The position numbers and the translations under genes were made by a program. Below are positions 11,342-30,335 of a stretch of 40,658 nucleotides of DNA, one piece after another. Each line of letters begins with the position of its first letter. The first letter of the stretch is position 1. The notes under the pieces were generated by a model. It saw only the letters and a list, made by a program, of their open reading frames with translations, made no database searches and had not been told where the DNA came from. Location: IMG/VR virus record IMGVR_UViG_3300011189_000018, positions 1 through 40,658 of that record. One strand, 5' to 3'. The stretch comes from a virus.

Positions 11342-12045
11342 TGACGATAAAAGAAATGCAATATCGCTTTGGGATTAAGGTGAACCAACTTGATTCAGCG
11401 CTTCAATTATACACTGATGACATTGAATACTGGTTAAACAGAGCTCAACTAGCTATTGTAAAAGAAGCCTATGAGAATTTTACTACAGATAAGAGGATCT
11501 ATGAACAGAATCCTGAGAGAGTAGATGACTTTAGAGTTCTTATTACTCGTAATACTAGTTTGGATACTGGTTATAGCAGTGCAGCTATAACACCTACTGG
11601 ATATTTTGTAGATACTGTAGAGTTGCCTAGTAATTATATGTTTCTATTAGCTAGCAAGAGTGTGGTACACTATAATTATCCTTCTATATCATTCACTGTA
11701 GCAAACGATAAACGTTCTTCAGCTGAATTTGAAGAGAGAATCGTAGTTAATGAAGTTGTACAACCAGATGATATTTACGATATTCTTAGCGATCCTTTTA
11801 ATACTACAAAGATTAAACGACCTCTATGTACTATTAATGATGATAACATTATGGCATATACAGACGGTAAGTTTTTAGTAGATAAAGTCATTATTGATTA
11901 TTTAAAAGAACCTACTCCTATGAATATAGAGAGTGGTACAGATTCTGAGCTACCTAATCACTTACATGATAATATATTAGATGTAGCTGTTAATTTATTC
12001 GCCTCTAGTGTCCGAAGTCAACAACCAGCTAAAGAAGTTGGATAA
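11341..12045 (+). CDS. Ring/head-tail connector protein B (paralogue-like partner)
   Basis: 234 aa. The layout mirrors the preceding protein: DIEYWLNRAQLAIVKEAYENF at the N-terminus, LPSNYMFLL in the centre and LPNHLHDNILDVAVNLFAS near the end. The two may be an ancient tandem duplication or two rings that stack on each other. The likely role is a second ring in the portal-to-tail connector. It begins on the stop codon of the first protein, and a 92-base leader with two hairpins follows it. Confidence 0.65.
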   Translation: MTIKEMQYRFGIKVNQLDSALQLYTDDIEYWLNRAQLAIVKEAYENFTTDKRIYEQNPERVDDFRVLITRNTSLDTGYSSAAITPTGYFVDTVELPSNYMFLLASKSVVHYNYPSISFTVANDKRSSAEFEERIVVNEVVQPDDIYDILSDPFNTTKIKRPLCTINDDNIMAYTDGKFLVDKVIIDYLKEPTPMNIESGTDSELPNHLHDNILDVAVNLFASSVRSQQPAKEVG

Positions 12046-19650: not shown

Positions 19651-20322
19651 ATGAACAGTCTATCTCTTAATCAAATAGCTTATAATTTACAAAATGCCAT
19701 TGAAGGTAATAGACCTGCACCATATGAGTATATATCTCTAGATCAAGTCAAGTTTATTATTAAATATTATAGGTCTCTCTATATACGTAGAGATGCTCAA
19801 AAGAATGGCAATAGGTTAGAACTATTTGAGCAGGATTTAGGCTTATTATCTACAGAGCAAGTGAACTCTTCAGAGAATGATACTACCTTATCTACTCATT
19901 TTCTACGAAGAACTTCTAAAAAGATTCCTACTCCTATTCGTTTAAAGAGAAAGCCAGGATTAACTTATATTGCTACTGTGGGTAAGTTTAATGAACCTTT
20001 TCCATTAGTAAACTCTGCCAGATCTTACTATAAACAATACGATAAGTATACTCCTAAAGATAAATATGCTATATATCAGAATGGTTATGTTTATCTTGAA
20101 AACGCAGTAGCAACAGATAAGCTCAATGTACGTGGAGTATTTGAAGATCCTGAACAAGTATTTGAGTTTTTACGAACTAACGGTTCTGAACTTTATGATG
20201 AGAATGAACCTTTTCCTATTAGTCAGGATATGATAGAGAGTATTACAAAGAATATCATTCAGGGAGAAATAACAATGTTTCAACAACCAGCTAACAGTAC
20301 ACCTAACTCAGAAGCAAAATAA
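19651..20322 (+). CDS. Ring protein of the tail connector, 223 aa
   Basis: The sequence resembles a ring protein conserved in crAss-like phages: SLNQIAYNLQNAIEGNRPAP at the start, QVKFIIKYYRSLYIRRDAQK, FEQDLGLLS, FLRRTSKKIPTPI, and a later YVYLENAVATDKLNVRGVFE. The final ~30 residues are polar and probably flexible. It would stack below the portal as part of the tail barrel. It starts one base after the fibre gene and its stop overlaps the next ATG (TAATG), linking it to the tubular protein that follows. Confidence 0.7.
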   Translation: MNSLSLNQIAYNLQNAIEGNRPAPYEYISLDQVKFIIKYYRSLYIRRDAQKNGNRLELFEQDLGLLSTEQVNSSENDTTLSTHFLRRTSKKIPTPIRLKRKPGLTYIATVGKFNEPFPLVNSARSYYKQYDKYTPKDKYAIYQNGYVYLENAVATDKLNVRGVFEDPEQVFEFLRTNGSELYDENEPFPISQDMIESITKNIIQGEITMFQQPANSTPNSEAK

Positions 20323-21110
20323 TGGCTATACAAGGATATCAATCTTCTAAACGTATAATTTCAAAAGTCTTTAGAGATCTAAAGATACAGGATACTGATT
20401 GGGTATCTGATTCTGTAGAGTGGATGGGAGAGGCTTTACAGGGTACTGGGTCTGTAACTCAGTTAGAGAATAAAATTAAGATAGTCAAAACATCTTCTCA
20501 TAAAGCAGTACTACCAGAAGGGTTGTACAGGTTAGATGAAGTTCGTTATGGATATTTTAATGCTAACAGAGAAGGTGATAACCCTCCTAAGAAAGAGGAT
20601 TTTCCTAAACTAATGACGTATGAGAATACAGGCTATCATCCTTCTATGATTGATAGCTATAACTCTCAGAAGCAAGCTAAAACATATTGTGAAGAAACAT
20701 TTTTTGTACAGGGTAATTATATCCATACTAGTTTTGAAGAAGACTGGATTGCAGTTGTCTATAAAGGTATAGCTACAGACTGTGATGGTTTTCCTCATGT
20801 GCCTGATCATTATAGTTTTTCTCAAGCGTTATATTGGTATATTGTAATGAAGATGCTTGAAAGTGGTATGGAGCATCCTGCAGGAAAGCAACAGATTACC
20901 TGGGCAGTAGCAGAGGATAGATGGCAACACTATTGCTCTCAGGCTAAAACAAAAGCTCTTATGCCAGATCCTGTCAGATATCAAGAGTTTGCTAAGAATT
21001 GGGTAACACTAATACCTAATGTATTAGAAAACTCACAATCTGTATTTGATGATAGAACAGAAGAACCATCTACATTAGCAGGAATGGCTTATCAACCAGT
21101 TAAAGATTAA
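20322..21110 (+). CDS. Tail tubular/ring protein (P22 gp4-like)
   Basis: 262 aa. Characteristic segments include SSKRIISKVFRDLKIQDTDW at the N-terminus, VEWMGEAL, a hydrophobic LPEGLYRLDEVRYGYF strand, IHTSFEEDWIAVVYKGI, then PDHYSFSQALYWYIVMKMLE and WAVAEDRWQHYCSQA. This is the pattern of the crAss-like tail tubular protein related to P22 gp4, which docks on the portal and receives the muzzle. It follows the ring protein with a one-base overlap. The muzzle genes lie a short distance downstream, after two small genes, as expected for tail assembly order. Confidence 0.75.
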   Translation: MAIQGYQSSKRIISKVFRDLKIQDTDWVSDSVEWMGEALQGTGSVTQLENKIKIVKTSSHKAVLPEGLYRLDEVRYGYFNANREGDNPPKKEDFPKLMTYENTGYHPSMIDSYNSQKQAKTYCEETFFVQGNYIHTSFEEDWIAVVYKGIATDCDGFPHVPDHYSFSQALYWYIVMKMLESGMEHPAGKQQITWAVAEDRWQHYCSQAKTKALMPDPVRYQEFAKNWVTLIPNVLENSQSVFDDRTEEPSTLAGMAYQPVKD

Positions 21111-21112
21111 TA

Positions 21113-21568
21113 ATGAAACTGATTATAGAAAGAACTTATAAAGAGAAGCAGACTTTAGGACATCTTAAGGTTATAGGTGTAGTAGGGGATGAAAATTTCT
21201 GTAGAGATATAACACTATTCGAGTGTAAGACTCTTGAATTATCTTGGAAAGACAATAAGATAGATTTATCTTGTATACCAGAAGGTAGATACAAAGCAGT
21301 AAAACATCAATCTCCTAAGTTTGATAATAGTATATGGATTAAAGATGTTCCTAAACGATCAGAAATTCTTATACATAAAGGGAACTTTGCTGGAAGTAAT
21401 AATCCTAATACAGGATTGCCTGATATAAAAGGTTGTGTCCTAGTAGGTGAAGATTTTGTGGATATAGATGGTGATGGTATAAAAGACATTACTAACTCTA
21501 CTCATACTATTAATAAGCTTTACAATATAATTGATAACGATATAATTGTGGAGGTTATTAATGAATGA
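21113..21568 (+). CDS. DUF5675-like protein, candidate cell-wall/lysis protein
   Basis: 151 aa. It follows the DUF5675 pattern: CIPEGRYKAVKHQSPKFDNSI near the middle, IWIKDVPKRSEILIHKGNF, then DIKGCVLVGEDF. The spaced H88 and C108 in IHKGN and KGCVLVG recall the His/Cys of L,D-transpeptidase (YkuD) active sites, so peptidoglycan binding or processing is possible. A DIDGDGIKD stretch at 117-125 resembles a calcium-binding loop. DUF5675 proteins occur in bacteria and phages without proven activity. The next gene, a one-helix membrane protein, overlaps its end by eight bases, which is reminiscent of an endolysin-holin pair. Function is inference. Confidence 0.65.
   Translation: MKLIIERTYKEKQTLGHLKVIGVVGDENFCRDITLFECKTLELSWKDNKIDLSCIPEGRYKAVKHQSPKFDNSIWIKDVPKRSEILIHKGNFAGSNNPNTGLPDIKGCVLVGEDFVDIDGDGIKDITNSTHTINKLYNIIDNDIIVEVINE
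21550..21554 (+). promoter_or_regulatory. Shine-Dalgarno site deciding the 21561 start
   Basis: GGAGG lies six bases before the ATG at 21561. It is the best Shine-Dalgarno match noticed in the window and argues against the upstream in-frame TTG at 21546 as the start. Confidence 0.6.
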
Positions 21569-21956
21569 AGAATTTCTAAATAGTCCTGTTTGGCAAACTA
21601 TGGGGTATGTAATATCTGTTGTTATAGGTGGTGTGATGTATAAATACATCAAACTATTTATAGATGCTGGTAAGCATAAGCAAGAATCTAGCAATGTAGC
21701 TACCCAAAAACTAATTGAAAACTTAGAGAACAGGCTAGATACATTGAGTAAACAGATAGATCAGTTTGAAACAGAACGTAAAGAAATACATAAACGAGAA
21801 CTTAAAAGAACTGAAGAGCTTGCAGAAGCTAAAGCTGATGTACGTATTCTTATGGAAAGAGTGAAACATATGGAAAAAACTATTTCTCGTTTAGATAAAG
21901 AAAATCAACGCTACAGGCAAAAATATGGTAACTTAGACAATGAGCAAAAGACTTAA
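21561..21956 (+). CDS. Holin-like protein: one membrane helix plus coiled coil
   Basis: 131 aa with the chosen ATG. A single hydrophobic helix (MGYVISVVIGGVMYKYIKLF, ~14-33) is followed by a long heptad-rich coiled coil to the C-terminus (LIENLENRLDTLSKQIDQFE, later VRILMERVKHMEKTISRLDK). One helix plus a cytoplasmic coil is seen in small BhlA/UviB-like holins, and some phage structural or chaperone proteins look similar. It overlaps the DUF5675-like gene by eight bases and the muzzle gene by 17, so it is tightly coupled to both. A GGAGG site precedes it. The alternative is a membrane tether needed for tail or cargo function. Confidence 0.6.
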   Translation: MNEEFLNSPVWQTMGYVISVVIGGVMYKYIKLFIDAGKHKQESSNVATQKLIENLENRLDTLSKQIDQFETERKEIHKRELKRTEELAEAKADVRILMERVKHMEKTISRLDKENQRYRQKYGNLDNEQKT

Positions 21957-23973
21957 AGGTTTATATACTGATTGTGATCCTGTAGATCAGCCAGAAGGCA
22001 CATACAGGCACGCTGAAAATATCAATATTAATGATATTGTGGGATCGGTAGTTACTGAAGAAGGTACTATAAATAAGTTTACTATAGAAGATCTATATGG
22101 TAATAGGTATAATCCTATAGGTCATGTTCCCTTACCAAATGGGGATGTAGTTCTATTCTATCCAGGAGGTATTTTAATACAAAAAGATGATGGTGATGAA
22201 TTTGTTCTATTGCAAGAAAGAAATTTTACAGCTCCAGAGATATCAATAACAAGTCAGCAATATATAGCTCATGATCAGATTAGTTTTTCATGGTTAATAG
22301 AAGACGGTCTTTCATCTATTACAGCTGTAGAAACTAGAATCAGACCTGTAGGAGGATCTTTTGGAGCATGGCAATCTGAAGGTACATCTTTAATAGGATC
22401 TACTACATATAACGTTAGCGATGGTGTAGAATATGAATTTGAAGTGCGCGCTACAAACGCTTTAGGTGATATAACTGCATCTGGTAGTCAAACTACAGCG
22501 CCTAACCCTGTTAGTGTTTCATTAGATCAAAATGGAACTGAAATAGATGTTACGTTTACAGCTCCTACTGATGATGGTGGAACTCCTATTACAAAGTACG
22601 AATATAGAGTTAATAATGGTGTTGTTAAAAGAGCAGGTACATTTACAGGTATTACAGGAGGTACTTTTACCCTTACAGGACTATCAGACTGGCAAGCATA
22701 TACTGTAGAAATGAGAGCAGTTAATGCTACAAGTCCTAGTACATGGGCAAGTTCAGGAGCCACAGCTGTAAAAGGATTAGAAGGAGCATTCTTGAATGTA
22801 ACACCTACCACAGGAGTAACTCCACTAGATGTAGAAATAGAATTTGGAGCTACTAATATGTCTAGCTCTTCAATATCTGCAGATCTAATTGTGGAAAATC
22901 AGATAGTAGATACGATAACTATATCTGGCCAGACAACTTCTAGTCAAACATTTGATCTTCTTAATGTTATAGCTTTAGGAACATACACAGTTAAATTCTT
23001 AGGATTAACAGAAACATTCCAAGTTACAGGAGGTCCAACTGATCCTGAGATTGCAAATGCTTTTCTAAATGTTAGCCCTCTTAGCGGAGATCAACCACTA
23101 ACAGTTGACATAAGCTATGGTGCAGATAATACTGGAGGTACAGGAATAGATACAGATCTAATTATTGAAGGGGTTGTAGAAGATACCCTAAACATTCCAG
23201 CTAATGGTTCTAACTCTACAACTATACAGAGAACTTTCCAAAATGCAGGAATGTATGAAGTAAATTACCAAAATAAAGATAGGTTAGTTACTGTTAACGT
23301 TGCTTTTGTAGATGAATTTCAAGGTGAAATCTCTATAAATGGACCTGCAGATGATGATGCAGATCCTACCTTTGATACAGGCGAGGTAGACGTGCTAAAC
23401 AGGCCTAGTCAAGCTTCAGATACATGTGGAAGCTTTGGTAATAACATATTCTACATTGAATGGAATAATGTAGATTATTGCTGGAAAATACCTAATTATA
23501 AGCCAAGTATAATACGAACAATATTAGCTAATGAAGTAAATACAAACATACCTGGTTTAAGCGCTAACATTACAGCGTCAGGTGTTGAGTTTATTGCAGG
23601 TTTTTCTGAAAACGGTTCTTCTATCATTCTTAAAGTACCTACTGCTATTGAAGGGAATGGGTTAATATTTAGTTCTTATACTATATTTTTATATGGCGGA
23701 GATGATGGGTATACTGTAAACGAACAGATTGATATAAAGATAGGTGGTTCAGTATTTGCAACTACAGCTCCTATCACAGCATTAGAGAGTGCTAACAGTA
23801 TAGCACAAAAAATATATGATGCCTGTATAGCTGTATCTTCTGACTACACGTTTACTTTAAACAGTAATGTAGTTACTATAGATACAGACGATAATTCTTT
23901 AACAGGTCTAGTGCAGCTAGATATTAAGAATGCAGGCTTTGCATATTCAACAGACGATATAACCATAGTATAA
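21940..23973 (+). CDS. Muzzle (P22 gp10-like stabilisation) protein, N-terminal part with FN3/PKD-like insertions
   Basis: 677 aa. Residues 1-95 match the start of crAss-like muzzle proteins: GLYTDCDPVDQPEGTYRHAE, then IVGSVVTEEGTIN and LPNGDVVLFYPGG. In the usual protein the next part follows directly; here it is replaced by two FN3-like domains (98-188 and 189-282), two PKD/Ig-like repeats (AFLNVTP, 283-368; AFLNVSP, 374-458) and a module with C496, C514 and C629 (462-677). Translation then stops at TAA followed by TAG, in the same frame as the next gene. It likely builds the tail tip together with that gene's product, with the inserted domains exposed for host contact. Confidence 0.75.
   Translation: MSKRLKGLYTDCDPVDQPEGTYRHAENININDIVGSVVTEEGTINKFTIEDLYGNRYNPIGHVPLPNGDVVLFYPGGILIQKDDGDEFVLLQERNFTAPEISITSQQYIAHDQISFSWLIEDGLSSITAVETRIRPVGGSFGAWQSEGTSLIGSTTYNVSDGVEYEFEVRATNALGDITASGSQTTAPNPVSVSLDQNGTEIDVTFTAPTDDGGTPITKYEYRVNNGVVKRAGTFTGITGGTFTLTGLSDWQAYTVEMRAVNATSPSTWASSGATAVKGLEGAFLNVTPTTGVTPLDVEIEFGATNMSSSSISADLIVENQIVDTITISGQTTSSQTFDLLNVIALGTYTVKFLGLTETFQVTGGPTDPEIANAFLNVSPLSGDQPLTVDISYGADNTGGTGIDTDLIIEGVVEDTLNIPANGSNSTTIQRTFQNAGMYEVNYQNKDRLVTVNVAFVDEFQGEISINGPADDDADPTFDTGEVDVLNRPSQASDTCGSFGNNIFYIEWNNVDYCWKIPNYKPSIIRTILANEVNTNIPGLSANITASGVEFIAGFSENGSSIILKVPTAIEGNGLIFSSYTIFLYGGDDGYTVNEQIDIKIGGSVFATTAPITALESANSIAQKIYDACIAVSSDYTFTLNSNVVTIDTDDNSLTGLVQLDIKNAGFAYSTDDITIV
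23323..23970 (+). repeat. Copy 1 of a duplicated cysteine-containing module (protein level)
   Basis: Encodes residues 462-677 of the N-terminal muzzle protein. It shares SD-x-C, DYC, I..NE.N.NIPGL, and I.L..PTAIE.NG.IF patterns, in the same order, with 25819-26547. The likeness is at protein level; the DNA copies are diverged. Confidence 0.7.
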
Positions 23974-23976
23974 TAG
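23971..23976 (+). other. Tandem in-frame stops (TAA TAG) dividing the muzzle
   Basis: TAA (23971) and TAG (23974) are followed in the same frame by GAC ATT and then the ATG at 23983. Removing two stop codons would make one continuous protein of about 2060 residues. Confidence 0.9.
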
Positions 23977-23982
23977 GACATT

Positions 23983-26900
23983 ATGTATTCAGAATTTTTA
24001 AAAGTAGGATTTAAAAAAACCAGTAATGTTCAAGCTACTTCTCGTATTAATGAGAAGGGAGAAATGATTATATACTGGACAGATGGAGTTACATCCCCTA
24101 GATTCTACAATATCACTAAAGACGAAGGGTTTGAAGCACCTGATGAATTAAACATCTTTCCATCTAGTAAATTTCCTATTGATCTTGATTTAATAGAAGT
24201 AGATGATTTTGGAGGTTCTTTAATATCAGGAGCTTATCAATTTGCAGCTAGGTATGTAGATGATGCAGGTAATATTAGTAACTTTACTACAATTACTAAA
24301 CCTATAGATATTGTTAGGGGTATACAGAGAGATGATTTTGGAGGAGACTATTTTAATCAAGGGAACCCTGTCAATAAGACCAGCAAATCTATTAAGATAT
24401 CTGCAAACAATCTAGATGAAAGTAAAGAAAATATACAGATAGCTGCTATTCGTTATGAAGATGGCGGTATTGCAGAAGTTAATCTGATGAGTCCTAGATC
24501 TATTATTGATACGTCTATGCAGATTACTTATACAGGAAATCAAGGAACTATTGACGGTTCTATAGAAGAAATACTTATAGATAATACTTATTATGAAACA
24601 GCTAAATATATTACTCAAGTAGATGATACCCTGTATATGGGTAATATGACAAAACCAGAAGCTGTACGATATCAGAAATATGCTAATGCCATTAAGACGA
24701 ACTACACAACAAAAGTATTAGACCTTACTCAAAAGTTTCAATGGGCTTATGGGGATGAAACTCTTACATACTTTAATAAGAGTTTTAGAAGAGATGAAGT
24801 GTATGCATTTTACATCTCATTCGTACTTGTAAGCGGTCAGGAGACTATGGCTTTCCATATTCCTGGAGGCTCTGAGGGAGGTATGAGAGAATGGATAAAT
24901 AGTAATGAATTTTATCCTGATACAGATGATTGGGATGTAGTAGAGTCCATAGCAGATACAGAAACAATAACATCTAATTTAAGAAACCAGAATGTAAAAC
25001 ATCACAGATTTCCTACAGAGTTTAATGTACCTATTTATCAAGGAGAGGGTTTTATTAGAGAGAATGTAGCAGTATCTACCATAGGTGTAAAGTTCTCTAA
25101 TATCTACATACCAGATGATATTCGAGAGAAAGTTGTAGGTATAAAGCTTTATATGGCTAAAAAGGATAATGAAAACAAACTTATCCTTGATCAGGGTTTA
25201 ATGACTTTAAATCAAAGACAGAATTGGGGTACTAGTACTACTCCATATGGTTCTTATGAGAATAGACTTCCTGAAGGACCTGTTAATGTGGAAGATGTAG
25301 ATGTATTTAGTTGTGTTCCTTTCAGCACTAAAGTTAGAAATTCTTCTATAGCTAGTATTACACATATTCAAAAGGTTGCTAAAGCTATAATTACAAGTAG
25401 GGAGAGCTATGAATATAATGGAGATATAAACAATGAAGTTAATGTAAAAATATCTGCTCCAACAAGATTTACATACGATTCTAACGATCCTGAAAATTTA
25501 AAAAGAAGAATCAAAGCTATATCCAATATACCTGCAGATACAGACTCTGTAAATATTACTAACTTAGGGTTTGAACATAATAAGAAAAGTACTAATGAAC
25601 ATTCCAGTGTACTTATAGCCTCTAAAGATCCACTGCTAGATATAGACTTTAATCTAACTGTAGGTAACTCTTATGGACCTATTGTAAACTTAATGCAGGA
25701 TAAGAGTGAACTTTACTCTCCTTTTGATCTTCAAGAGTTGGTGTTAATAGGAGAGTATTATCAGAATATGGAAATCTTTAGTGCTAATCCTAGTATTGCA
25801 GGAGGTACTAAAGCTACAGGCTTTGTTACTATTTCAGGAGATGCTCCTACAGAAATAGCAGGCATATCCCCAACAGCTACTTTTGAAATACAGAATGAGC
25901 CTAGTTCTGACAGTGATGCTTGTACAGGTAGCAATCTAAATGAAGCTTACTTGACATACAAGGGTACTGATTACTGTTTACCAATAATAGCTGTAACTAA
26001 ATCTACCTTAGCTACTATTATTGTTAATGAAATAAATTCAAATATACCAGGACTAGATGCTATTAACTTAGGGGGAGCTAATCCAGTAATACGAGTTAGT
26101 TCTACAGATATTTCTGCTACTGATAACGGTGAAACTATTGTTTTACAGATACCTACAGCAATAGAAGATAACGGTGCTATATTCACACCTAATACATTTG
26201 ATTTAACAGGAGGTAGAGATAGATTAGAAGGCTCTGCTGGTAATATAGCATTTAGCTTTAAGAATTTTGAAGATCCTATTCAAAACATGTCTACAGAAGT
26301 TTTCTATGATCAAACAAAGATTCAAATAGCTCAAAATCTAGCTCAAGATTTAAACAATGATGATTTTGTTGCTTACTCTGCTACTGTAGATATATCTGAA
26401 GGTAACCCTGTAATGATTATAGAAGCTAATGCTGTAGGTAGTGAGTGGAACGGTGCTATATATAACACTGTAAATGATCCTACTGTTTCTAATGTTACGG
26501 AAGGTTTAATTGGAGGTAGTTCTCCAGGTGAGGCAGGATCTTTACCTGCTATGTATGGAGGAGATACGTATATAAATAAATTTGGTTATAGAATTGGGGG
26601 AGTATCTAATAAAGATGATAGATCTTCAGATGATTATGGTACTCATGTTGTATTTATTGTTGTAGAATCGTATGATAATATTGCTTTTAGACAGTCTGGT
26701 AATGACTATGGAGAACTGAATGGTAATAATTTATCACAGGCTGAAGAACTGATATTATTAGAAGAGAATCATCCAGATCCTGAATTTGAAGGGTACATTG
26801 ATAACTATCTAGAGTATGATTTATCTCACAGTGTAGATGGTCATCTAGTTGCAAAAACAACTCCTTATCCTAAGAAGTTTTCAGAAATAATAGAGTTTCC

Positions 26901-28122
26901 TAATAGAGTTATTCGTAGTAAAACAGATGATGATGTACTAGAATCTGACTTATTCAGAGTATTCCTTGCTGAGGATTACTTAGATCTTCCTAAGAATAGA
27001 GGAGAGATTACAAACCTAGAAGTTCTTCAGAATATTCTTATAGCTCATATGAGAAGAGGGCTGTTTAAAACTAGAGGTAGAGAAGAACTTGTTACCGCTG
27101 ACTTTAGAGCGTTCTTAGGTAATGGTAACATCTTTGCTGTTAAGCCTGATGAATTATTTTCTGTAGAAGAAGGGTATGCAGGTCTTCAACATTCACGCTC
27201 TTCTGTAGTTACTCCTATGGGATATTTCTTTGTAGATCAACAGGCTAAGAAAGTATTTTCTGTAGCAGGTAAACCTATAGAGATATCAGAGGCAGGGATG
27301 AGGAATTTCTTTGAAGATAATCTGGTCTGGCATATAGATGAACTTGAAGATGGTATTGCAGATAAGATTCTTAATACTGAGATACTTATGTCTTATGACC
27401 CTGAGTATAAAAGAATTATCCTGACTAAAAGAGATTGGAAACCTACTCAAGCATTAAAAGATGCTACATGGTCTGTAGAAGATGGAGAATTGCTTGTAGA
27501 TGGAACACCAATAGATTTCACAAATGACACATACCTACAAGATGAGTCATTTACTATTTCATATTTACCAGAAATTCAGAGATGGGTAAGTTTCCATTCA
27601 TACGTACCAAACTACATGTATAACGATATCAACAAGTTGTTTACTGTAAACGATGGTATTATATACGATCATAAAGGAATTCCTGCAGAATTTTATGGAA
27701 CTCAACATGATATGATCTATGAGTATGTAGGCAATGAAGCTCCAAAACAAACTAAATTAGTACAGAATGTAGAATTCTTAACCTATGCTTATAATCCTGG
27801 GTCATCTGATAGGGTTAATTACAAGAAGACTTTTGATGGAATCCGTATTAGTAATGAACTGCAAGATACTGGATTTGTTGATCTTATTTACTTTACTGAA
27901 CCTAATGGTAATGTTAGAAATATAGACCATACATGGAAAGTGAATAAATTTAGAGATCTTCTTAATCCTGATACAGGTGAGATAGACAATACCTTGCCTG
28001 CACATGAGCAGAAAAAACTAACTGGAAAATATGCTATAGTTAGGTTATATTACACTCCAGAGGATGCTAGATTTCTAAGACTGCTTTCTTCTGATGTTAA
28101 CTTTAAACCGCACCATAGATAA
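23983..28122 (+). CDS. Muzzle (P22 gp10-like stabilisation) protein, main part
   Basis: 1379 aa. It begins where the core of crAss-like muzzle proteins usually continues: INEKGEMIIYWTDGVTSPRF, followed by GAYQFAARYVDDAGNISNF. Further segments include VVGIKLYMAKKD, MYGGDTYINKFGYRIGG, FAVKPDELFSVEEGYAGLQH, VTPMGYFFVDQQAKKVF and YDPEYKRIILTKRDW. A second copy of the cysteine module (C647, C664) is inserted at about 613-855. The muzzle forms the distal tail nozzle that closes the channel and opens on ejection. No membrane segment is visible. The start follows the tandem stops by six bases, and the end overlaps the cargo gene by one base (TAATG). Confidence 0.85.
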   Translation: MYSEFLKVGFKKTSNVQATSRINEKGEMIIYWTDGVTSPRFYNITKDEGFEAPDELNIFPSSKFPIDLDLIEVDDFGGSLISGAYQFAARYVDDAGNISNFTTITKPIDIVRGIQRDDFGGDYFNQGNPVNKTSKSIKISANNLDESKENIQIAAIRYEDGGIAEVNLMSPRSIIDTSMQITYTGNQGTIDGSIEEILIDNTYYETAKYITQVDDTLYMGNMTKPEAVRYQKYANAIKTNYTTKVLDLTQKFQWAYGDETLTYFNKSFRRDEVYAFYISFVLVSGQETMAFHIPGGSEGGMREWINSNEFYPDTDDWDVVESIADTETITSNLRNQNVKHHRFPTEFNVPIYQGEGFIRENVAVSTIGVKFSNIYIPDDIREKVVGIKLYMAKKDNENKLILDQGLMTLNQRQNWGTSTTPYGSYENRLPEGPVNVEDVDVFSCVPFSTKVRNSSIASITHIQKVAKAIITSRESYEYNGDINNEVNVKISAPTRFTYDSNDPENLKRRIKAISNIPADTDSVNITNLGFEHNKKSTNEHSSVLIASKDPLLDIDFNLTVGNSYGPIVNLMQDKSELYSPFDLQELVLIGEYYQNMEIFSANPSIAGGTKATGFVTISGDAPTEIAGISPTATFEIQNEPSSDSDACTGSNLNEAYLTYKGTDYCLPIIAVTKSTLATIIVNEINSNIPGLDAINLGGANPVIRVSSTDISATDNGETIVLQIPTAIEDNGAIFTPNTFDLTGGRDRLEGSAGNIAFSFKNFEDPIQNMSTEVFYDQTKIQIAQNLAQDLNNDDFVAYSATVDISEGNPVMIIEANAVGSEWNGAIYNTVNDPTVSNVTEGLIGGSSPGEAGSLPAMYGGDTYINKFGYRIGGVSNKDDRSSDDYGTHVVFIVVESYDNIAFRQSGNDYGELNGNNLSQAEELILLEENHPDPEFEGYIDNYLEYDLSHSVDGHLVAKTTPYPKKFSEIIEFPNRVIRSKTDDDVLESDLFRVFLAEDYLDLPKNRGEITNLEVLQNILIAHMRRGLFKTRGREELVTADFRAFLGNGNIFAVKPDELFSVEEGYAGLQHSRSSVVTPMGYFFVDQQAKKVFSVAGKPIEISEAGMRNFFEDNLVWHIDELEDGIADKILNTEILMSYDPEYKRIILTKRDWKPTQALKDATWSVEDGELLVDGTPIDFTNDTYLQDESFTISYLPEIQRWVSFHSYVPNYMYNDINKLFTVNDGIIYDHKGIPAEFYGTQHDMIYEYVGNEAPKQTKLVQNVEFLTYAYNPGSSDRVNYKKTFDGIRISNELQDTGFVDLIYFTEPNGNVRNIDHTWKVNKFRDLLNPDTGEIDNTLPAHEQKKLTGKYAIVRLYYTPEDARFLRLLSSDVNFKPHHR
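25819..26547 (+). repeat. Copy 2 of the duplicated cysteine-containing module (protein level)
   Basis: Encodes about residues 613-855 of the main muzzle protein. Matches copy 1 in the order of SDAC, DYC, VNEINSNIPGL, IVLQIPTAIEDNGAIF and LTGGRD. It sits between two core muzzle segments, as an insertion would. Confidence 0.7.
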
Positions 28123-30335
28123 TGAAGAATAACCAACCTTATGGATACACAGGAAAGCCTTCACCTAGAAGAGTAGTTATTAAAAAAGGTAAATATTTCA
28201 ATCCTAATAAATATGGGTTAGGAGGTCTTATAGGTACAGGTTTAGGTGCTATAGGAGGTTCTTTTATAGGGCAGCCTATGCTTGGAGCTCAGATAGGAGG
28301 TATGGTAGGTAACCAGTTTGACAAGAAGAAGGAAAAGGAACCAGAAGAAATAGAAGAAATTACTATGGGTAGTGGAAATTTAGGAGAATATAAAAACGGT
28401 GGGTATAAAGGTTATGCTACAGGAGGGTATGCTAAAAGTATGGGAGGAGGGTCTTATAAAGCTATAGGTAGAAATCATGCTCAAGGAGGAATTGTTATGT
28501 CTCCTGATACTGAAATAGAGGGCGGTGAAACTATAAACGCTGACTCTCAAGGAAGCTATATCTTTTCTGACAGATTAAAAGTACCTAAAAGTAATGAGAC
28601 TTTTGCAGAAAGACACGAAAAACTAATGTCTATGAAAGCTGATAAGACAGCTGTAGACGATCTTGCTGAAATGCAGGAACGTGTATCTGGTAGAAAGAAA
28701 AGAAATTTAGGTAATAATAATTCTAACTGGGGTGAAAAAGGTGCTGTGATGGCTAATGGTGGGTATAAGCCCGCTAAGTATGCTACAGGCGAAGTTCCAA
28801 CTCCAACTACTACTAGTGGAGTAGTAAATCCACCTACTCCTAAATTATATGAAGGAGCTACTGGAAGTTTTGATGATGAAGGATTAACTACTGGAAGTTT
28901 TGATGGTGAAGGATTAACTACTGGAGATTATATATTTGCACTGGCTCCTACTGCATTTAATTTAGGTGCAGGTATTTTTGGTAAAAATAAAACTGAAAAA
29001 CCTACTAAAGTAGCTAGAGCTAAGATTAATGATGATCCTATTAATTATAATATCAATCCTGAACTTAGAACAAGTGCTCAAAGTTATAGAGGTATTTTAG
29101 CTAATCCTGCTGCATCTTCTCAAGAACGATTAGCTGCTTTATCTATGAAGGGTACTGCAGACTCTAGAGCTTATGCTCAGAAGAATAATGTAGAAATGCA
29201 GATGAGTGAAAGACGTAACATTTCACAAGCTAGGCTAGATTCTAATACTAATGCTCAAAACGCATCTATGCAAGAAAGAGCAAGACAAGACAGAATGGCT
29301 GCTGAAGCTCAATTAGGCCTTACAGGTAATCTTTCAAGACAAGCTATTTCTGAAGCATCTACTAACATCATGAAAATGAAGGCTGAAGGTAACATGAGAG
29401 AAAGAGACAAACAGATGGAAAAATACCTTAGAACATACTATGGAGATGATCCTGCTGTATTACGATTCTTCGGTGAGGAGAGTTCAAAAAAAAAAGTAGC
29501 GGGTAAACCTGATACATCTACTTCTTATACACCTGCAGATAGAAATATTCCTCCTACTCCTGAACGTCCTAGTGCCCCTAAAGCTTTAACAACTACCCCT
29601 ATGGGTATTCCTCGTTTAGACATAGAAGAAACAGATTCTGAAAACTTATTTGATAGCAGATTAGAGAAGCCTTATACACCTGCAGATAGAAATATTCCTC
29701 CTACTCCTGAACGTCCTAGTGCCCCTAAAGCTTTAACAACTACCCCTATGGGTATACCTAAGATAAACGTACCTAGCAACAATATGGATTTTAGTGGTAG
29801 GCTACCTATAAAGTCTGCTGAAAAACCTAGCGTACCATCTAGTAAGCCAAAAGATAATATTATAGAGGCTACTGATTTAGAATTAGATCAAGCATTAACA
29901 GATATAGATACTAGTTTGTTAGATAATCTTACCCCTCAAGCAACAGATATAGATACATCAATTACAAAAGGTTCTATCAATTTACCTGTTCAGGGAGAGG
30001 TAACTAAAGGTTTTGGCACACAGACACACCCTGAGCTTGGTACTAAAACACCTAGTCTTGGTATTAATATTAAAACAGAACCTAATCAACCTGTAAATTC
30101 TGTAGGAACTGGTATAGTAAAACGCGTAGCTAACATTTCAGGGCATGGAAACTCTGTAATAGTTGATCATAACGGAACTCTTGTTGTATATGGTAACTTA
30201 GGAGATATTGGTGTGAAAGAAGGGGATACTATCAATGCAGATAGTCCTATTGGTAACAGTGGTCAAAATGATGTATTTTTCTCTATACGAGAAAATGGCA
30301 AGATGGTAGACCCTCTAACTTGGATAAATAAATAA
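28122..30335 (+). CDS. Cargo/ejection protein with degenerate M23 (LytM-like) C-terminal domain
   Basis: 737 aa. The N-terminus is basic, followed by a Gly-rich hydrophobic segment (~33-65, GLIGTGLGAIGGSFIGQPML) that could insert into or cross a membrane. The region ~325-450 is helical and Ala/Gln/Met-rich, as in ejection proteins. An 85-bp exact repeat and a 30-base tandem repeat lie in the linkers. Residues ~618-737 follow the M23 plan (GEVTKGFGTQTHPELGTK to PLTWINK), but the zinc ligands are changed: S645/N649 replace HxxxD, and D717/F719 replace HxH. It may bind rather than cut peptidoglycan. Placed after the muzzle, it is probably loaded in the virion and ejected with DNA. Confidence 0.75.
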   Translation: MKNNQPYGYTGKPSPRRVVIKKGKYFNPNKYGLGGLIGTGLGAIGGSFIGQPMLGAQIGGMVGNQFDKKKEKEPEEIEEITMGSGNLGEYKNGGYKGYATGGYAKSMGGGSYKAIGRNHAQGGIVMSPDTEIEGGETINADSQGSYIFSDRLKVPKSNETFAERHEKLMSMKADKTAVDDLAEMQERVSGRKKRNLGNNNSNWGEKGAVMANGGYKPAKYATGEVPTPTTTSGVVNPPTPKLYEGATGSFDDEGLTTGSFDGEGLTTGDYIFALAPTAFNLGAGIFGKNKTEKPTKVARAKINDDPINYNINPELRTSAQSYRGILANPAASSQERLAALSMKGTADSRAYAQKNNVEMQMSERRNISQARLDSNTNAQNASMQERARQDRMAAEAQLGLTGNLSRQAISEASTNIMKMKAEGNMRERDKQMEKYLRTYYGDDPAVLRFFGEESSKKKVAGKPDTSTSYTPADRNIPPTPERPSAPKALTTTPMGIPRLDIEETDSENLFDSRLEKPYTPADRNIPPTPERPSAPKALTTTPMGIPKINVPSNNMDFSGRLPIKSAEKPSVPSSKPKDNIIEATDLELDQALTDIDTSLLDNLTPQATDIDTSITKGSINLPVQGEVTKGFGTQTHPELGTKTPSLGINIKTEPNQPVNSVGTGIVKRVANISGHGNSVIVDHNGTLVVYGNLGDIGVKEGDTINADSPIGNSGQNDVFFSIRENGKMVDPLTWINK
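28861..28920 (+). repeat. 30-base tandem duplication in the cargo gene
   Basis: Two adjacent 30-base units (28861-28890 and 28891-28920) differ by one base and encode TGSFDDEGLT and TGSFDGEGLT. It is a recent in-frame duplication in a linker. Confidence 0.9.
29524..29755 (+). repeat. 85-bp direct repeat in the cargo gene
   Basis: 29524-29608 and 29671-29755 are identical over 85 bases and 147 bases (49 codons) apart, in frame. Each encodes a Pro-rich unit running from YTPADRNIPPTPERP to ALTTTPMGI. Identity at every base implies a recent duplication or gene conversion. Confidence 0.9.

Follow-up and report, generated by a model that had tools for sequence, protein, structure and literature searches.

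Results

Two same-frame genes at the muzzle locus

The window is the whole stretch of viral DNA that was analysed, 40,658 nucleotides corresponding to positions 1 to 40,658 of IMG/VR record IMGVR_UViG_3300011189_000018. It carries two adjacent genes, ORF1 and ORF2, which share one reading frame; the sequence TAA TAG GAC ATT lies between them and is followed by the ATG that opens ORF2 at 23983. The preliminary description had reported this arrangement of same-frame ORFs, two stops, two sense codons and a start, and it can be read directly from the window sequence. The features of the locus are as follows:

20322-21110, + strand: tail ring protein 1 (Pfam CrAss_Ring_1, 1.5e-45), the upstream neighbour as in crAss001
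21940-23973, + strand: ORF1, 677 aa, muzzle start plus extra domain block
21940-22224, + strand: muzzle N-terminus and predicted propeller blade 1 (ORF1 residues 1-95), with the conserved motif K-G-L-x3-D-x4-DQPEGTYR
22225-22746, + strand: two fibronectin type III (FN3) domains (ORF1 96-269), not at this site in relatives
22777-23304, + strand: two similar Ig/PKD-like repeats, AFLNVTPTTGVTPLDVEIEF and AFLNVSPLSGDQPLTVDISY (ORF1 280-455), recognized by eye in the translation
23323-23970, + strand: diverged duplicate of the ORF2 decoration domain (ORF1 462-677 versus ORF2 613 to about 860)
23971-23976, + strand: tandem in-frame stops TAA TAG closing ORF1, identical in three assemblies
23977-23982, + strand: GAC ATT spacer, with AGGA (from TAGGA) 4 nt ahead of the ORF2 ATG
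23983-28122, + strand: ORF2, 1379 aa, muzzle from the predicted blade 1/blade 2 boundary to the C-terminus (blades 2-7, IG domains, crass domain)
25819-26220, + strand: decoration domain with a duplicate in ORF1 (ORF2 613-746), also present in the nearest relative, L013

The junction has the anatomy of an ordinary gene boundary. The AGGA ahead of ORF2 would form a duplex of -3.9 kcal/mol with the anti-Shine-Dalgarno sequence, a feature that most genes of the window lack, and the ATT-ATG at the ORF2 start resembles other starts in the window, in a context like that of other operon genes. Two proteins are the likeliest outcome. Of the window's 32 genes, 9 have a further in-frame stop next to the first and 27 end in TAA; same-frame junctions are also seen at other places in the operon, namely, between terminase and portal (TAA|ATG) and at 30335/30339. 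As tandem stops and same-frame junctions are both common in this genome, neither is unusual alone. The earlier argument that two consecutive stops indicate real termination is thus weak evidence by itself, and it is the junction anatomy as a whole that fits termination.

The same junction, with the same stops, is present in IMG/VR contigs 3300035034_000200 and 3300028377_000024, which share 99.9% DNA identity with the window. Within gap-free aligned stretches, the two contigs differ from the window by 11 single-nucleotide polymorphisms (SNPs) in total, all silent or missense; these spare the stops and leave both frames open, and all three assemblies preserve the 677 codons of ORF1 uninterrupted. 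Since the stops are identical in assemblies that differ by SNPs, they are not a random assembly error but a property of the phage species. Immediately downstream, the M23-peptidase gene (28122-30335) encodes 737 aa in the window and 729 aa in contig 3300035034_000200, the difference being a repeat-associated block at window positions 29680-29739.

ORF1 and ORF2 together cover one muzzle

The muzzle, a tail-tip protein, serves as the gate of the Crassvirales, the most abundant phages of the human gut, and presumably as their point of contact with the cell. A custom muzzle profile (muz.hmm, length 1404) was built from related muzzles with ORF1 left out. In this profile, positions 18-85 are matched by ORF1 residues 3-75 (i-E 1.1e-15) and positions 110-1385 by ORF2; the two stretches do not overlap, and nothing sizeable is missing between them. 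ORF2 is also matched by Pfam crAss_MUZ (1.3e-38, above the cut-off), in a match that begins only at profile position 108; the muzzle N-terminus (profile positions 1-107) is present in ORF1 by muz.hmm and absent from ORF2 by Pfam. At the other end of ORF2, Pfam crAss_MUZ_C reaches 18.2 bits versus a cut-off of 27, while muz.hmm coverage extends there to position 1385 of 1404. The invariant N-terminal residues D11, Q17, N27, E40, and G61 are kept in ORF1. Because the matched stretches are complementary, ORF1 and ORF2 together make up one complete muzzle, which bears out the preliminary assignment of a muzzle-type start of ~95 residues to ORF1 and of the core to ORF2. Judged from these matches, a gene boundary inside a conserved protein is the unusual feature here. 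Annotating ORF1 alone, as an FN3 protein, and ORF2 alone, as an N-terminally short muzzle, would miss their relation.

An inserted domain block behind the muzzle start

The sequence shared with relatives ends at about ORF1 90-95, and ~580 extra residues separate this point from the ORF2 core. The block begins with two FN3 domains, the second of which is detected by Pfam fn3 at ORF1 187-269 (8e-10); a Foldseek search retrieved tandem FN3 pairs (E about 1e-8). Residues 280-455 are a probable, still tentative PKD-like pair; these repeats had no Pfam family match, and model confidence is low there. The remainder resembles a decoration domain of ORF2, with 37% identity between ORF1 462-589 and ORF2 613-746 (E 1e-16), and the extended alignment of this region also takes in L013. 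The ORF2 decoration domain has a counterpart in L013 and so is native to this clade; the copy in ORF1 seems to stem from an old duplication. Relatives of ORF1 were found neither in phage and plasmid records by tblastn nor in GTDB genome contigs.

Position of the cut

When compared to PDB sequences, the muzzle family profile matched gp44, the muzzle of phi-crAss001 (E 1.5e-24). The published gp44 structure is hexameric, and its seven-bladed propeller already tolerates an insertion, IG1, at residues 163-292 between blades 2 and 3 (PMC10172136). In our alignment, profile positions 85-110, where the window's muzzle is interrupted, correspond to gp44 residues about 86-111, ahead of the IG1 insertion. 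AlphaFold predicts ORF1 strands at 61-64, 70-74, 77-81, and 88-93 (pLDDT about 80-90), with the first FN3 domain directly after them; four short strands are what is expected of one blade. Outside blade 1 and the FN3 domains, the model of ORF1 alone has low confidence. For a partial single-chain read-through model (57 alignment rows), the stops were shown as Q for analysis only. Here blade 1 has pLDDT values of 79-90 and the core 85-95, whereas pLDDT at the join itself is low; the top PDB match of this model is again gp44 (E 6e-14). Taken together, the alignment to gp44 and these moderate-confidence models suggest that the chain is most likely cut between propeller blades 1 and 2.

Muzzle genes of relatives are fused at this point

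In the muzzle tree, the nearest relative and sister to the window is L013 (3300012270_000003), whose muzzle is a single ORF of 1448 aa. Its residues 2-72 align with ORF1 3-77 (40% identity), and co-linearity with ORF2 6-1370 extends over L013 92-1439 (30% identity). So that loci would not be picked by their core, IMG/VR was also scanned blindly with the N-terminus alone, using a five-sequence alignment, as a 15-sequence N-terminal alignment was too diverse for scanning. Twenty loci were retrieved, two of which are this species; the other 18 all carry N-terminus and core in one ORF (18/18, three of these loci being cut by a contig end further downstream). In addition, 77 distinct contigs or records have a complete muzzle in one ORF (85 loci less 8 contig repeats). 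The preliminary description had raised the question of fusion in relatives, including the possibility that the 95-residue start lies outside their muzzles; in the relatives examined, N-terminus and core were joined. From these counts, the fused muzzle is clearly the ancestral state. The N-terminal split, found in one species with a nearest fused relative that is 30% identical, looks derived and unique to this species within the sample.

In six relatives, from at least two lineages, the muzzle is split close to its C-terminus, and its last part is encoded by a second gene of about 277-293 aa:

L084, 9584-15997: C-terminally split muzzle, first gene ending TAA TAA
L087, 9584-15947: C-terminally split muzzle
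L088, 9551-15717: C-terminally split muzzle
L089, 3715-9609: C-terminally split muzzle, first gene ending TAA TAA
L094, 9716-15008: C-terminally split muzzle
L079, 9428-17670: C-terminally split muzzle

These six cases indicate that muzzle chains can be broken. In a limited search of the open literature, neither an N-terminal nor a C-terminal muzzle split was found reported. Several other variations were seen among muzzle genes. The fused-N-terminus ORF of L079 (9428-16882) has an insert of ~100 residues in blade 1, at about residues 85-190, with no stop; the fused muzzle ORF of L069 (9584-18649) encodes 3022 aa, with ~900 extra residues ahead of the C-terminal part; and the muzzle gene of L072 contains a lone in-frame TGA (11507-11509) with no start codon directly after it, which is either read as Trp or an error. 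p-crAssphage gp48, considered as a second muzzle piece, had no Pfam match and was rejected.

Discussion

A proposed two-chain muzzle and its alternatives

We consider it likely that the muzzle gene of this phage has been split at the blade 1/blade 2 boundary, with ~580 extra residues added behind blade 1, and that the muzzle consists of two chains. The earlier proposal of two chains, the small one bearing extra domains, is supported by the assignment of both parts to the muzzle, as well as by the fused relatives, the FN3 and duplicate domains, and the ordinary junction. Ribosomes would terminate on ORF1 and initiate on ORF2 a few nucleotides further on, in the manner of other operon junctions. 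ORF1 would then bind non-covalently to the propeller that ORF2 forms, contributing through its first ~95 residues blade 1 and a portion of the ring-joining region; there would probably be six copies of each protein, and one ring-shaped muzzle domain is probably assembled from two chains. If the closed propeller is kept, ORF1 must give blade 1 in trans, which would leave the extra domains suspended from the tail tip, where they would project and make contact with the cell surface. A further, rather doubtful extension is that the small chain of a true two-chain propeller acts as a plug-in blade with receptor-binding domains and either varies in number from virion to virion or can be exchanged among relatives in co-infection; were this so, host contact could change with the gate-forming core untouched.

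Alternatively, ORF1 might be made but remain outside the propeller, as an accessory adhesin or a relic whose old N-terminus is just a docking tag, in which case ORF2 would fold without blade 1 or recruit another strand donor. Most of ORF1 is indeed non-muzzle sequence, and a propeller with one blade missing can sometimes be tolerated; however, the conserved invariant residues, the frame that is intact in three assemblies, and the close meeting of the two profile halves make this reading improbable. Less probable still is the suggestion, made in the preliminary description, of a recoding site; here a fraction of ribosomes would pass TAA TAG, by readthrough or bypassing, and yield a rare fused muzzle of ~2060 aa, with the extra domains on a few subunits. 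The common frame on either side, the mere two sense codons ahead of the ATG, and the fused chain made at this point by every relative examined are what one would expect of it. Yet there are two stops, the first of them TAA, the dominant terminator here, and an ATG in ordinary context directly follows. No stable RNA structure was found around TAA TAG (z -0.98) and Rfam scans returned no match; the window uses the standard code throughout, showing neither a tRNA gene nor any hint of an alternative code. Readthrough genes are recognized by a single leaky stop together with a stimulatory RNA or a conserved fusion signal, and the junction instead presents tandem stops and no structure. Recoding to a fusion therefore finds no support.

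Two further readings are barely credible. Some clades of crAss-like phages carry introns and inteins (PMC12386605), and a self-splicing intron, an intein, or DNA excised between direct repeats could in principle be removed to restore a fused muzzle. Rfam scans revealed no intron, however, and the block is coding sequence in frame with blade 1 that contains binding-type domains and, by Pfam, no endonuclease. Repeats flanking it do not exceed chance (longest 8 nt versus a random mean of 8.5). The commonness of tandem stops and same-frame junctions, combined with the lack of an intron, a recoding structure, or a flanking repeat, renders readthrough unlikely as well. That the stops are a sequencing or assembly error, or mark a pseudogene in one genome, might be suspected from the metagenomic source and from the lone TGA in the L072 muzzle. 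This reading is already largely refuted by three assemblies that share the stops yet differ elsewhere, and by the succession of two stops and a new ATG.

To our knowledge, the muzzle is structurally known only as a single chain. On sequence grounds, the N-terminal split represents a novel structural form of a protein that is already known. A natural split after blade 1, accompanied by a large adhesin-type block, shows where the muzzle tolerates insertion and chain breakage, and offers a specific, testable two-chain propeller of interest for tail-tip architecture.

Comparison with known muzzles

The L013 muzzle has the same N-terminus and the same core as ORF1 plus ORF2, including the decoration domain, but is one ORF with no inserted block and no stops. 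Muzzle homologues of Flavobacterium phages Fpv1/FpV4 and Leptolyngbya phage Lbo-JY46 likewise align, through N-terminus and core, with ORF1 1-95 plus ORF2, while being single ORFs of 1654-1961 aa. The C-terminally split muzzles of the six relatives resemble ORF1/ORF2 in that the muzzle is spread over two adjacent genes; they differ in being cut near the C-terminal end, with a small piece that lacks an adhesin block. Considered alongside the N-terminal split, they suggest that division of the muzzle between two genes is recurrent. The gene order of the window follows that of crAss001 (ring protein 1, muzzle, two large cargo-like genes, and a giant last ORF, a candidate RNA polymerase gene), except that ring protein 1 and muzzle are adjacent in crAss001, whereas in the window they are separated (21113-21956) by two genes, one for a DUF5675 protein and one of coiled-coil type that is similar to spanin/holin families. 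gp44 itself (PDB 7QOK/7QOL; PF25731 crAss_MUZ and PF25729 crAss_MUZ_C) shares with ORF1 plus ORF2 a profile match along the protein, but it is one chain of 1371 aa. Being a single chain characterizes the relatives seen here and does not belong to the definition of the crAss_MUZ family, whereas the muzzle of the window is encoded by two genes.
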